From NCBI GenBank assembly GCA_030593145.1, contig JAUVHU010000003.1:1-64000 (forward strand): 64,000 bases of DNA. Direction: 5' to 3'. A model generated the notes under the pieces. The model made no database searches and was not told where the DNA came from. It saw only the letters and a list, made by a program, of their open reading frames with translations. Shown here in pieces: positions 3,076 to 8,783 of the stretch (within the stretch, counting starts at the first letter, position 1; the number at the start of each line of letters is the position of its first letter). The position numbers and the translations under genes were made by a program. The stretch is from Desulfobacteraceae bacterium (lineage in GTDB: Bacteria; Desulfobacterota; Desulfobacteria; Desulfobacterales; ETH-SRB1).

Positions 3076-3795
3076 TTATGACAGTGCACAAACAGGCATT
3101 TCATCCCATGTTTTATTTAAAAGAGTCCGGCCGTTTTTCTTCTTACGCACACCGCCCCATTGTTTAAAAAAGAACGGAACATTGTATTTTACGCATTGTC
3201 TTTTTATTTCAAGCACCCATTCTTCCTTCATTGGTCTTGCTCCAGGACCGGATTCTCCGCCAACTATAACCCAATCTATTCCTTTTAGATTAACTTTTCC
3301 AATATTCCCGATTAATGGTTCAAATGATAAAAATTTTACGTTTGCTTTTACTTTTCGTAAATCGTCTATTCTGAATTTATAATCTGCATTTTCAACAGTT
3401 ACTCCCATCCAGATATGTTTTGACCATGGGATTTCCGAATTTAGCTCAAGCATTCTCTCAGATCGTTTGGTTAATATTTGGTATAAGTGCCAGTCTGCTT
3501 TATTCATTACATCAAACAAGTTAAGAACAAATGCTTTCTGAACTGATTTGTGAAAAATGTCACTCATGGAATTTACAAAGATGGTTTGAGGTTTTTTCCA
3601 TTTCAATGGCAACCCAGTTGCAAGTGGGTGAGTAGTTATTTTAAAGCCGTTACGATAATTTGCTTGCCCCATAGCTTTTAATCTTTTAGCCATTCTTTCG
3701 GCATAGCAGTTTTTACATCCCGGACTTATTTTAGAACAGCCCGTAATGGGGTTCCACGTGGATTCTGTCCATTCAATAGATGATTTTTTTGACAT
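3076..3795 (-). CDS. DUF5131 / phage Gp37-Gp68-like three-Cys-motif protein
   Basis: WTESTWNPITGCSKISPGCKNCYAERMA (C-x6-C-x2-C); start placed at MSKKSSIEW (3795), overlapping the tcmP stop as TAATG. Confidence 0.85.
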   Translation of the reverse strand: MSKKSSIEWTESTWNPITGCSKISPGCKNCYAERMAKRLKAMGQANYRNGFKITTHPLATGLPLKWKKPQTIFVNSMSDIFHKSVQKAFVLNLFDVMNKADWHLYQILTKRSERMLELNSEIPWSKHIWMGVTVENADYKFRIDDLRKVKANVKFLSFEPLIGNIGKVNLKGIDWVIVGGESGPGARPMKEEWVLEIKRQCVKYNVPFFFKQWGGVRKKKNGRTLLNKTWDEMPVCALS

Positions 3796-4682
3796 TATTG
3801 CCTCTTTAAAATATCCTGTGCAATTTTTATTGCGGTTTTTGCGCCCCTTGGACTGCCCGATGCAAAACACAGCAAATATAATGGATTGTTTTTTGAATTT
3901 CGGAGTAATAAAGGGTTTTCAGCAACACCGGCAAATATCGATTTAAGTCTTTTCACAATGAATTTGCTTATTTTATTAAAATCAGCGTCTTTAACTATTT
4001 TAGTTTCATTACCAAAAAGCGTTGTCTCTTGTCGTTTGCTATAAAAAGCCTCTTTCCACTCGTTTGTTCCAAAAATGCTATCTAACTTTGCTTCCCACGA
4101 AGCGGGTATTTTACCAGCATCTTTTTTAAGAAGTCTATTTACACCAATACCCAAAGGGAAAAGATACCATAAATCTATAGCTTCTGTGTTTGCAATGGCT
4201 TTGATTGTTTCCCAATTGACCTGCATTCCATATGGATCAAGCAATAATACAGCGCGGTTATATTGCCACTTATAATTGTTACAGCGGTCTATTATCCAAC
4301 TATTTGCATCCGTGTTGATTAAATCAATCTTTTTCTCTTTGTTTTTGAATTCCTCTTTGAGTTTTAGCAATTCTGTAAAATGTTTTCTTGTTTTATCAAT
4401 AAAGATATATTTGTCAAATTCCGGCTTAATCTCCAAAGCAATACGAGCAGAGCCTTTTGAATATGTTTCAATCTCTTTTATATCGTTTTGTTGGAACAGG
4501 AATATTTGTCCATCATTTTTATTCTTTTTTTCTTCTCTGTATCCGGTACCGGCAAAGGCATCAATATAAGCAAACCGAAATTTTCGCTTATTCATAATAG
4601 TAGCATAAGCTTTCAGGTATTTTTCTACCCGTTTGAGTTTTTCTTCTGTCCAGCTACCTCCGAATCCATGAGTTTCTGTCAT
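3795..4682 (-). CDS. tcmP: Three-Cys-motif partner protein TcmP-like
   Basis: HGFGGSWTEEKLKRVEKYLKAY...FAYIDAFAGTGYR...LLLDPYGMQVNW; immediately upstream of and coupled to the three-Cys-motif gene. Confidence 0.82.
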   Translation of the reverse strand: MTETHGFGGSWTEEKLKRVEKYLKAYATIMNKRKFRFAYIDAFAGTGYREEKKNKNDGQIFLFQQNDIKEIETYSKGSARIALEIKPEFDKYIFIDKTRKHFTELLKLKEEFKNKEKKIDLINTDANSWIIDRCNNYKWQYNRAVLLLDPYGMQVNWETIKAIANTEAIDLWYLFPLGIGVNRLLKKDAGKIPASWEAKLDSIFGTNEWKEAFYSKRQETTLFGNETKIVKDADFNKISKFIVKRLKSIFAGVAENPLLLRNSKNNPLYLLCFASGSPRGAKTAIKIAQDILKRQ

Positions 4683-4859: not shown

Positions 4860-5032
4860 CTAGTGTCCTGTCATCTATGTAATGTCGCAAAGATGGCCGT
4901 CATTCCCGCGAAAGCGAGAATCCAGAAGCGCCGAAGTGGCCAGAAATACTGAATTCCCGCATTCGCGGGAATGACATTGGTGGTGTTCTACTTTCTTTCA
5001 TATCAAACACTTGATACATGACACGACACTAG
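4860..5032. repeat. MITE-like element with about 21-bp terminal inverted repeats
   Basis: Left end ctagtgtcctgtcatctatgta (4860-4881); right end tgatacatgacacgacactag (5012-5032), near inverse complement. Interior has CATTCCCGCGAAAGCGAGAATCCAG...ATTCCCGCATTCGCGGGAATGAC. Confidence 0.75.
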
Positions 5033-5565
5033 TTGGAAACAAGAAACCCCAAATTGATCAGCCGATATTCCATTGCTTGCGTGCTAACATCGAACGTATT
5101 AGAAAGCTTTTGTATGAGCGCTTCTTTCCCTATCACATTATTTTGCTTTGATATTTCTCTGCGAATTTCTCTCTGCACGAAATCTCTTGGCATTAGCAGT
5201 TCTGCAGCAAATGCATTAGCAGCTATTTCATTTTTATCAATAGCCATACTTGAAGTAGTATCTCTAAAATCAATCTTTACAACTTTATCTATAAAAAGTT
5301 TCTTTTTGTGAAGAACTAAGTGCCCAATTTCATGCGCAATCGAAAAGCGTTGTCGGGTATTGGGGTGTGAGGAGTTAATGCCTATTATATTGATTTCTCC
5401 ATCGCGGAACATCATACCAGAAATATCATCTTTACCTTCAAAAGGCTCAAAAGTGAGCTTTGCCCCCATTTTTTTTGCAATCAATTCCACTGGCACTGGC
5501 GGTTTATTAATGTTTAGGTCTTCAAGAATTGATCTTGCCTTTCTCTCATTTGCGTTCATCATCAA
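5029..5565 (-). CDS. ImmA/IrrE family metallopeptidase
   Basis: RFSIAHEIGHLVLHKK (HExxH) plus ENEIAANAFAAELLMP-like motif (KNEIAANAFAAELLMPRDFV). Confidence 0.9.
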   Translation of the reverse strand: MMMNANERKARSILEDLNINKPPVPVELIAKKMGAKLTFEPFEGKDDISGMMFRDGEINIIGINSSHPNTRQRFSIAHEIGHLVLHKKKLFIDKVVKIDFRDTTSSMAIDKNEIAANAFAAELLMPRDFVQREIRREISKQNNVIGKEALIQKLSNTFDVSTQAMEYRLINLGFLVSN

Positions 5566-5896
5566 CCTCCATCTTCATCCCTAAGGATATGACTCGTTCT
5601 GCCCAGCTTACGCCTTCCTCTTCCCTTAGTTTTTGCTTTAAAATTTTCCTGTCAATTAAATCCTGTTTGGGGGAGTTTTTTGTTTCGGGGAGCAACCCAA
5701 CCGGTTGCACACCAACGGCTGAAGCTAATTGAAGTAACATGTGCAAGGAAATACCTTGTCTGCCTTTTTCAATATTTGTTATTGAAGTGCGGCTAAGACC
5801 AACCCTATCCGCAAGGTCTACCTGGGTCAATCCCGCCCTTTTTCTCGCATCCCGGAGCTTTAGGCCGAATGCTTTGTATATTAAATTTTTATACAT
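5546..5896 (-). CDS. XRE-family helix-turn-helix regulator
   Basis: LRDARKRAGLTQVDLADRVGLSRTSITNIEKGRQGISLHMLLQLASAVGV; start placed at MYKNL (5896); overlaps the ImmA gene start. Confidence 0.88.
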   Translation of the reverse strand: MYKNLIYKAFGLKLRDARKRAGLTQVDLADRVGLSRTSITNIEKGRQGISLHMLLQLASAVGVQPVGLLPETKNSPKQDLIDRKILKQKLREEEGVSWAERVISLGMKMEVDDERK

Positions 5897-5903
5897 ATTG
5901 AAA

Positions 5904-5932
5904 ATATAATCATTTCCATGGCCAGATGTCAA
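5904..5932 (-). promoter_or_regulatory. Candidate sigma70-like promoter for XRE/ImmA
   Basis: Reverse strand TTGACA (5932-5927), 17 bp, TTATAT (5909-5904), just upstream of the XRE start. Confidence 0.5.
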
Positions 5933-5984
5933 CAAAATAAACAGTTTGCTTAACAAACATATTAAAAATATTTTGTCAGAGGTA

Positions 5985-6012
5985 TTGACATTTGATTTTT
6001 CGAGATTATAAT
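5985..6012 (+). promoter_or_regulatory. Candidate sigma70-like promoter for the ubiquitin-like operon
   Basis: TTGACA (5985-5990), 16 bp, TATAAT (6007-6012), 50 bp before the first ATG at 6063. Confidence 0.65.
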
Positions 6013-6062: not shown

Positions 6063-6290
6063 ATGAAAAACAAATCCACACACGTTGTACCGAAGTCATC
6101 TGGAGGATGGAACATTAAACAAAATGGTGCGCAGAGGTCTTCTGGTCACTTTGACAGGAAGCAAGACGCTATTGACCGGGCACGGGAGATCAGCCGTAAT
6201 CAGAACACAGAACTTGTTATCCATAATAAGGATGGCAAGATATCCCAGAAAGATAGTCACGGGAATGATCCATTTCCGCCAATAGGTTAA
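6063..6290 (+). CDS. DUF2188-like small protein
   Basis: HVVPKSSGGWNIKQNGAQRSSGHFDRKQDAIDRAREISRNQNTELVIHNKDGKISQKDSHGNDPFPP, typical DUF2188 pattern. Confidence 0.85.
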   Translation: MKNKSTHVVPKSSGGWNIKQNGAQRSSGHFDRKQDAIDRAREISRNQNTELVIHNKDGKISQKDSHGNDPFPPIG

Positions 6291-6343
6291 GCATTAAAAC
6301 TATTAACTTATTGAATAAATAATGAAATTAAGGAGAAAGAATC

Positions 6344-6598
6344 ATGCAAAATGAAAAATCTTCAAAAGACCACCCGTTTAAAATTATGATCGATCAAAAG
6401 CCTTACGACTGGCCGAATCAGTTTATCACAGGATCTCAGATCAAACAATTGGCAGGTGTTGACATGAGCTATGGTGTATGGCTCAAAGTTCATGGTCCTG
6501 GCGAGGACCTGCCTATTGGTGACCAAGAACAGGTTGATCTGAGTGAACCTGAAAGAGAGCATTTTTTTACAGCTCCTACCCAGACAACAGAGGGGTAA
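6344..6598 (+). CDS. Ubiquitin-like (multiubiquitin-family, beta-grasp) modifier, single domain ending in Gly
   Basis: KIMIDQKPYDWPNQFITGSQIKQLAGV...LPIGDQEQVDLSEPEREHFFTAPTQTTEG*, first in an E2/E1-JAB operon. Confidence 0.8.
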   Translation: MQNEKSSKDHPFKIMIDQKPYDWPNQFITGSQIKQLAGVDMSYGVWLKVHGPGEDLPIGDQEQVDLSEPEREHFFTAPTQTTEG

Positions 6599-6599
6599 A

Positions 6600-6989
6600 A
6601 TGTCATTTTTGCCTGAATTTGACCAAAATTATTTGCAGGAGAAAGGTTTCGACTTCAGAGAGGTCTCGAATAACGGCCATAAAGGTCTCATCCTATCCGA
6701 TTTCGTCCTCCCTGTAGAGAAATATGACCGTGGCAAGGTGGATTTGTTAATCCTTCTTCCCCAAGGTTATCCTGATATTTCACCTGATATGTTTTATCTG
6801 TTCCCGGCAGTAGTTCTGATGCCTGGAAAGCAGACTGCCAAGGCCGCAAATGTCAAATTCAATTTCGAAAATAAAGAATGGCAGCGATGGTCTCGGCATT
6901 CTCCTGGCCCAACTTGGCGACCAGGAATAGACGGGCTCCATACATATTTAAAAAAAATTGAAACTGCCTTGCAGGTGGCTAAGCCATAA
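6600..6989 (+). CDS. Prokaryotic E2-like protein (Prok-E2_E type), cysteine-free
   Basis: MSFLPEFDQNYLQEKGFDFREV...LLILLPQGYPDISPDMFYLFP...WQRWSRHSPGPTWRPGIDGLHTYLKKIETAL; no Cys in the translation. Confidence 0.8.
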   Translation: MSFLPEFDQNYLQEKGFDFREVSNNGHKGLILSDFVLPVEKYDRGKVDLLILLPQGYPDISPDMFYLFPAVVLMPGKQTAKAANVKFNFENKEWQRWSRHSPGPTWRPGIDGLHTYLKKIETALQVAKP

Positions 6990-8398
6990 TGAGATATACA
7001 TTTACTTTACAGCAGCAGCATTACCAGGAGTTGCAAGAAAACCTGATCCGCGATGATGGACTAGAGCGCATCGCCTTTATCTTATGCGGTCGCTCCTATA
7101 TAGCGTCAGACCCTTGGGATTCGATACCTGAAGAGCGATTCTTGTCCAGAAAGGTAATAATTTTGCCAGACGATATGGTTTTGGATTCCAGTCTTGTGCA
7201 TGTCACTTGGGAAACTGATTATTTCGTTAAGCTTCTGAAAGAGGTTGAGGAACAGAGCCTTGCAATAACAATTGTGCATAACCATCCAAATGGTCATCCC
7301 AAATTGTCCGAGATAGACAAGGTCAATGAAAAGAAACTATTTAGGGTATTGCATAACAGGAATGGAATTGAACGTCCTCATGCAAGCTTAGTTATTATAC
7401 CTGATGGTGGAATTTCTGGGCACTCATGGGATAAAGAACTGGATACTCATCCGTTTGATTTGATAAGAGTTTTTGGAAACAAATTTAAAATCTTTTATCC
7501 AAGTAAAGGTCAGGGTGATTTGGCAAAGGCTTTTCATAGGCAAGAACTCGCCTTTGGAAAAGCATTAAATCATGACCTTTCAAAAATGAGAATAGCTGTT
7601 GTCGGGTGTGGAGGAACTGGTTCGGCAACTGCAACTTTCTTAGCAAGATTAGGCGTGGGGAAAATTCTCCTTATTGATGAAGATTATGTGGATGAAACGA
7701 ATCTTAATCGCTTGCATTGTGCTTCGATATCTGATGCTCAGACCAAGCGACTTAAAGTTGATGTGTTAGAATCAGCGATTATAAATATGGGGTTGGGGAC
7801 TAAAATTAAGACTATTAGCCAATGGGTCGAGTCAGACAATAACACTGATTCATTAAAATCGTGTGATATAGTATTTGGGTGTACAGATGATCATCAAGGA
7901 AGATTATTATTGAATCGTCTTGCTTATTTTTATCTGTTACCGGTGATTGATATGGGTCTGCTCATTAAGGTTTCAGAGGCAGAACCACCGGAAATTAGCG
8001 TTTTGAATGGAAGAGTTACGGTTCTCTATCCGGAGAATGTATGCCTATTATGCCGAAATGTGATCAATCCAGAGATTGCACGTGCTGAAGGCTTGCAGCG
8101 TCGTGACCCTGAAGGCTATAGGGAGTTAAAAAAGGAAGCGTATGTCATTGGAGAAGGTGATCCAAGCCCTGCCGTTATGACTTTTACAACTGAAGTGGCA
8201 ATAATGGCTGTAAATGAATTTATTCACCGTATCCAAGGATTTCGTGGACCAGATGGCTCAGCTTCAGAGAGACTCCGTCTATTTATAAGCTGCGAGGATA
8301 GAAAGACAGGTGGTAAAATTCGTGAAGGCTGTGACCTGTGCGACAAACAAAAGTTCTGGGGCCGTGGTGATATGGAACCCTTTTTAAATCGGATTTAG
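6989..8398 (+). CDS. JAB (JAMM) isopeptidase-like / ThiF-E1-like fusion protein
   Basis: N-terminal JAMM HNHPNGHPKLSEID; C-terminal E1 adenylation motif AVVGCGGTGSATATFLARLGVGKILLIDEDYVDETNLNRL; CLLC/CDLC pairs; TAATG overlap with the E2 gene. Confidence 0.9.
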   Translation: MRYTFTLQQQHYQELQENLIRDDGLERIAFILCGRSYIASDPWDSIPEERFLSRKVIILPDDMVLDSSLVHVTWETDYFVKLLKEVEEQSLAITIVHNHPNGHPKLSEIDKVNEKKLFRVLHNRNGIERPHASLVIIPDGGISGHSWDKELDTHPFDLIRVFGNKFKIFYPSKGQGDLAKAFHRQELAFGKALNHDLSKMRIAVVGCGGTGSATATFLARLGVGKILLIDEDYVDETNLNRLHCASISDAQTKRLKVDVLESAIINMGLGTKIKTISQWVESDNNTDSLKSCDIVFGCTDDHQGRLLLNRLAYFYLLPVIDMGLLIKVSEAEPPEISVLNGRVTVLYPENVCLLCRNVINPEIARAEGLQRRDPEGYRELKKEAYVIGEGDPSPAVMTFTTEVAIMAVNEFIHRIQGFRGPDGSASERLRLFISCEDRKTGGKIREGCDLCDKQKFWGRGDMEPFLNRI

Positions 8399-8399
8399 A

Positions 8400-8783
8400 A
8401 TGAATACATTCAATAAATTTCTTTTAACCATATTCATAAAGCTTGGATTTTTTGACTCACCAGATTTTTTATCACAGATTGTATCAGACCATCCATCCAG
8501 GGATAACCTACCGAAAAATCAGGTGCTTGTTGTTGGAGGTCCCGGTTTTAAGAAATGGGCTTATCTAAAATGCCCTTGCGGTTGCGGTGATTTTGTCATG
8601 CTATCGCTATCAAAAAAAACAAGACCAAGCTGGTCTGTTTCATTAGATTTTTTTAATAGGCCAACCATCTATCCATCAATACGCCAAACATCACGATGCA
8701 TGAGCCATTTTTGGATAAAAAAGGGCAATGTCAAGTGGTGTGAAGACACCGGGAAACCCCCTAAAATTGCTATAAATATATAA
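8400..8783 (+). CDS. DUF6527 family protein
   Basis: WAYLKCPCGCGDFVMLSLSKKTRPSWSVSLD...PSIRQTSRCMSHFWIKKGNVKWCED; starts 1 nt after the E1-JAB stop. Confidence 0.82.
   Translation: MNTFNKFLLTIFIKLGFFDSPDFLSQIVSDHPSRDNLPKNQVLVVGGPGFKKWAYLKCPCGCGDFVMLSLSKKTRPSWSVSLDFFNRPTIYPSIRQTSRCMSHFWIKKGNVKWCEDTGKPPKIAINI

Follow-up and report, generated by a model that had tools for sequence, protein, structure and literature searches.

The window, a 64-kb stretch of DNA from a member of the Desulfobacteraceae, carries a compact operon of five genes on the forward strand. The first gene (6063-6290) encodes a 75-aa DUF2188 protein (PF09954, E-value 1.6e-22) that also matches PDC-S16 (2.3e-36), which PADLOC lists as a candidate defence family. 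It is followed by the genes for a single-domain, BubA-like ubiquitin-like protein, Ubl (6344-6598; Multi_ubiq, PF14452, 4.6e-17), a 129-aa BubB-like E2-like protein (6600-6989; Prok-E2_E, PF14462, 1.8e-42), a BubCD-like JAB-E1 fusion (6989-8398; ThiF, PF00899, 5e-39) and a DUF6527 protein (8400-8783; PF20137, 7e-23). These Pfam match strengths are far beyond chance for the five ORFs; the further Prok-JAB match of the fusion protein (6e-4) falls below the Pfam cut-off, and its JAMM residues are intact nonetheless. The ORFs and Pfam assignments bear out the five packed genes and the families named in a first-pass annotation of this DNA, and the HMM searches it had proposed, for Prok-E2_E, Multi_ubiq and DUF6527, all gave matches. 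Its statement that the gaps are of 1 nt, apart from a TAATG overlap between the E2 and E1 genes, holds for the Ubl/E2 and E1/DUF6527 junctions but not for DUF2188 and Ubl, which are 53 nt apart.

Upstream of the operon, two genes are transcribed divergently from the minus strand. One encodes a CapH-like HTH repressor (5546-5956; capH is its best PADLOC match, 2.3e-13; HTH_31, 1.2e-15), whose true start is likely the ATG at 5896, and the other a CapP-like ImmA/IrrE (M78) metallopeptidase (5029-5565; best PADLOC match capP, 1.2e-32; PF06114, 4e-25). A repressor and peptidase pair of this type beside an immune-type operon is the hallmark of CapH+CapP, and we infer that it is a DNA-damage-type controller of the Bub operon. 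A predicted sigma-70 promoter, TTGACA-16-TATAAT (5985-6012, forward strand), found by pattern matching, agrees with the consensus at 12/12 positions and faces the operon. Around the capH start lie two palindromic repeats, candidate CapH operators of the form ACATATT(G/A)AAAATAT (5893-5907 and 5957-5971), with an inverted repeat, GTTTG-CTTAA-CAAAC, between them; the pattern has only these two copies in the 64 kb and none in shuffled sequences, a zero expectation that overstates their significance, since the pattern was derived from the same pair. On the minus strand, an 11/12 sigma-70 match (5932-5903) stops some 7 nt short of the ATG at 5896, which may make the mRNA of capH leaderless. Adjoining capH/capP and the Bub operon is a candidate defence pair, the minus-strand genes for TcmP (three-Cys-motif partner) and DUF5131 (3076-4682; PADLOC PDC-M41A/B, 2.6e-124 and 3.1e-118). 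Neither this pair nor capH and capP had been mentioned in the first-pass annotation. The locus may be a small island of defence type in which the Bub operon is controlled by the divergent CapH/CapP pair.

Adjacency of a Multi_ubiq Ubl, a Prok-E2_E protein and a JAB-E1 fusion in one operon defines the known "6e" or Bub (bacterial ubiquitination-like) class, of which the operon is, by its gene sequences, a member. Operon type 6e was predicted by Iyer, Burroughs and Aravind in 2006 (PMC1779556), for example on Synechocystis pSYSX, with an E2-like protein that lacks a conserved Cys and was read as "catalytically inactive", and with a Zn-finger partner. The window shares with it the Ubl gene, the Cys-less E2-like gene between Ubl and JAB-E1 and the Zn-finger partner, but its Ubl consists of a single domain and its first gene is DUF2188. 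Equating 6e with the Bub name rests on homology found in this analysis: the closest solved relatives by sequence are Citrobacter BubB for the E2 and Citrobacter BubCD for JAB-E1, from the operon whose BubA, BubB and BubCD structures are deposited in the PDB (9ea4, 9ea5, 9ea8, 9eae, 9eav), and the Bub structures that we found are from Citrobacter only. Pfam, the 2006 report and the PDB entries agree with the earlier assignment to a multiubiquitin/Prok-E2_E/JAB-E1/DUF6527 class that is not new. A published survey counted 544 Bub operons, 219/544 with CapW or CapH+CapP, and phage protection by Bub has not been shown to date (PMC13373217).

Three known loci illustrate how the window compares with its class. 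On Rhizobium phaseoli pRphaR620c, the same five genes occur in identical order, with HTH and ImmA/IrrE genes upstream that are co-directional rather than divergent as in the window; the E2 and E1 proteins share 50% and 49% identity with ours. The Synechocystis pSYSX locus has its HTH and ImmA/IrrE genes divergent upstream, as in the window. The Citrobacter Bub system shares the E2 motif QRWSRH, a JAB-E1 fusion of the same overall fold and a crossover-loop Tyr, yet its E1 is only about 24-27% identical to that of the window. In the Citrobacter relative L012, a small gene lies directly 3' of the E1 gene, again as in the window, whereas a multi-domain Ubl part is fused to the E2 (the window Ubl being single-domain and separate), the CxxC pairs and DUF2188 are missing, and a CapK/CapS-like regulator pair lies upstream. 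Two cyanobacterial plasmid loci, L013 (7898-9352) and L014 (7622-10375), carry SAVED-domain (CBASS-type) genes just downstream of the Bub operon.

The Ubl of the window, which matches the solved multi-ubiquitin proteins 9cd2, 8u38 and 9d5b, ends in an exposed TTEG. For wider comparison, we assembled 93 loci, consisting of the window, 12 plasmid loci and the best 80 of 356 candidate relatives from a contig scan. Among the Ubls of this set, 65 are separate from the E2, 40/65 of them ending in Gly and most others carrying a short tail after it, and 28 are fused to the E2, mostly right after TTEG. The JAMM motif (E, HxH, SxxD) of the fusion protein is intact (E26, H97, H99, S107, D110) and conserved in the alignments. 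These tails would fit processing of fused or tailed forms by the JAB domain, for which the window Ubl should have no need, its Gly being already exposed.

In the E1 half, the adenylation residues are conserved: the intact GCGGTGS loop at 206-212 (GxGGTGS in the family), D232, N238, R241, K256 and D300. JAB-E1 matches BubCD of 9ea4 at 2.4e-45 by sequence, and a fold search with its AF2 model (pLDDT 88.9) returned 9eav, 9ea4, 9ea8, 9eae and 9ea5 as best matches (about 1e-43 to 1e-40; TM 0.8 to 9eav/9ea4), followed by UBA5, ThiF, MccB and MoeB. Resemblance of the E1 domain in fold to ThiF, MoeB and MccB could point to sulfur carriage or peptide modification instead of conjugation, a reading that we regard as extremely improbable: the BubCD structures fit far better (about 1e-43 vs about 1e-15), genes for all three of E2, Ubl and JAB-E1 occur together in 93/93 loci, including the best 80 of 356, and the window operon is adjoined by no rhodanese or cofactor-biosynthesis gene.

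The E2 protein contains no Cys at all, as its translation (6600-6989) confirms, and hence none at the canonical UBC active site. E1-like adenylation and E2-like domains also occur together in Cap2-like E1-E2 fusions (Prok-E2_B) and in eukaryotic E1/E2 systems, but these keep a conserved E2 Cys (invariant C104 in A5). No conserved Cys column was found in the E2 alignment of the 93 loci, 80 of them the best of 356; position 82, where Cys is commonest, has it in 29/93, and Cys is entirely absent from 34/93 of the E2 domains. Sequencing error or a local loss is therefore ruled out, and the claim of a Cys-free E2 withstands the test of whether this one sequence alone has lost a Cys. By the alignment, absence of a catalytic Cys is a trait of the whole family, not a peculiarity of this locus. 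The suggestion that the chemistry would be novel here does not stand, as the same loss was described in PMC1779556 and holds in 93/93 loci (the best 80 of 356 included), and Citrobacter Bub structures are already in the PDB.

Ser, Thr and His residues had been proposed earlier in place of the missing Cys, and conservation narrows this choice to S98 and H100. W97, S98, R99 and H100 are present in 93/93 E2s, including the best 80 of 356, an invariance that is partly built in for the 80 scanned loci, because WQRWSRH was among the scan patterns; the motif is also found in Citrobacter BubB and in the 12 plasmid loci, which came from tblastn, independent of the pattern. Assignment of the protein as an E2 rests on Pfam and on sequence matches to BubB (9eae/9eav; 1e-13, or 8e-19 with the family profile). 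In its AF2 model (pLDDT 90.2), S98 directly follows the strand 92-97 and precedes the helix 113-126, which would be the place of the Cys in active E2s; comparison of the Prok-E2_E profile with that of the Cys-bearing Prok-E2_B, made to place S98 against that Cys, gave no significant similarity.

The main rival to Cys-free ester transfer through E1 and/or E2 is that the E2-like protein is an inactive, RWD-like adaptor that binds Ubl, while E1 alone transfers Ubl, from AMP or Y385, to targets bound by the E2 or DUF6527. Inactivity was proposed for the family in PMC1779556, the E1 adenylation residues are intact, and BubB is bound to BubCD in 9eae and 9eav, all of which would suit such an adaptor. 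However, an adaptor of this kind need not keep QRWSRH (nearly) invariant across several phyla in 93 loci (the best 80 of 356 included), nor hold S98 at what would be the Cys place of an active E2, and we consider this rival unlikely.

The E1 half was inspected for cysteines in the same way. By hhalign, C352/C355 and C448/C451 line up with the CxxC pairs of E. coli ThiF, and ThiF C184 (PERNCRTAG segment) falls at K381, at the start of a loop just before the crossover-loop insertion; we take C184 to be the catalytic Cys of ThiF and its CxxC pairs to bind zinc. The E1 loop that matches the catalytic-Cys region is KKEAYVIGEGDP (381-392), and no Cys column occurs between 355 and 405 of the E1 alignment. 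C298 is conserved in 88/90 sequences, including the divergent L012. A thioester on C298 or on a CxxC Cys of E1, with the E2 alone being non-canonical, would make use of this conservation, but it is very unlikely: C298 lies in FGCTDD, whose counterpart in ThiF, DCTDN, belongs to the nucleotide site and does not hold the catalytic Cys, and the CxxC cysteines, which are missing in L012, are ruled out as catalytic by their alignment with the ThiF pairs. These alignments agree with the first-pass annotation, which described the E1 cysteines as mostly CxxC-type or belonging to the nucleotide-binding region. It was also right that the segment expected to hold the catalytic residue has no Cys, though it placed this segment at SPAVMTFTT, just downstream of the aligned loop.

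Instead of a Cys, the crossover loop contains Y385, which is present in 88/88 E1 sequences; within the E1 half, with the GTGS loop (S212) set aside, it is the only Ser, Thr, Tyr or Cys kept in every row. The title of PDB entry 9eav reads BubCD(D104A/Y370F)-BubB-BubA(155-229). Its Phe aligns in the Y385 column, at chain position 372 by count, the title numbering being two lower, so that by alignment Y385 is the counterpart of Citrobacter BubCD Y370, a residue that the depositors evidently deemed important. The E1 alignments favour this Tyr, not the Ser or Thr of SPAVMTFTT; Y385 lies within a lower-confidence loop of the AF2 model (block pLDDT 63), and its role could be structural.

Of the two accessory proteins, DUF6527 contains C58-x3-C62, C100-x2-H103 and C114, with Cys/His conservation across the family, and probably binds Zn. 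DUF2188 directly precedes Ubl in 10/93 loci, including the best 80 of 356. In the E1 tree, 9/10 of these loci fall into one clade of ten rows (support 98/98), whereas the window branches elsewhere, at an uncertain place and with a long branch. A literature search found no paper that explains DUF2188. Four of these loci (L015, which is the R. phaseoli locus, L066, L075 and L085) share, at most 220 nt upstream of DUF2188, the palindrome CGCTA(A/T)TTAGCG, to which CapH might bind there. An operator common to all DUF2188 loci is ruled out, as the palindrome occurs in 4/9 of the others and is missing from the window.

The operon has a patchy distribution. E1 was missing from 56/57 related genomes searched, and Prok-E2_E was found in 4/396 genomes of the phylum, the genome of the window included, so the Bub operon is probably a horizontally moved module. 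No E2 relatives were found in the phage collection.

Taken together, we think it likely that the window encodes a complete Bub/6e conjugation operon, controlled by CapH/CapP, in which Ubl passes through Ubl-AMP and a Cys-free ester via Y385 and/or S98 to a target. Damage or phage signals, in a presumed defence role, would activate the CapP peptidase, leading to removal of the CapH repressor. With its C-terminal Gly exposed, the Ubl would be adenylated by the E1 domain and handed on without Cys, as an ester on the crossover-loop Y385 of E1 and/or on S98 of the E2, the latter assisted by H100. From this ester, Ubl would move to the target, and the fused JAB domain could remove or process the tag. 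DUF6527 and DUF2188 would be accessory and possibly target-selecting. Ye et al. (2026), in a paper on the Bub mechanism, reportedly describe oxyester intermediates. A more specific order, a tyrosyl ester on E1 Y385 followed by a seryl ester on E2 S98, with DUF2188 as an additional, dedicated player (a target, an adaptor or an inhibitor) by which a subtype of these operons could be told apart, is put forward only tentatively.

The anatomy of the operon is secure, and its Cys-free property is family-wide and was noted 20 years ago. To this class, the window adds an operon whose single-domain Ubl has an exposed end, whose E1 has kept the zinc-type cysteines and which includes DUF2188, a recurring partner of Bub operons. 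The question of Cys-free transfer concerns the whole family and is already under study; the comparison made here pinpoints Y385 of E1 and S98 and H100 of the E2 as the residues to consider. Should Tyr and Ser esters prove to be the route, ubiquitin-like transfer chemistry would extend beyond the thioester of the textbooks.
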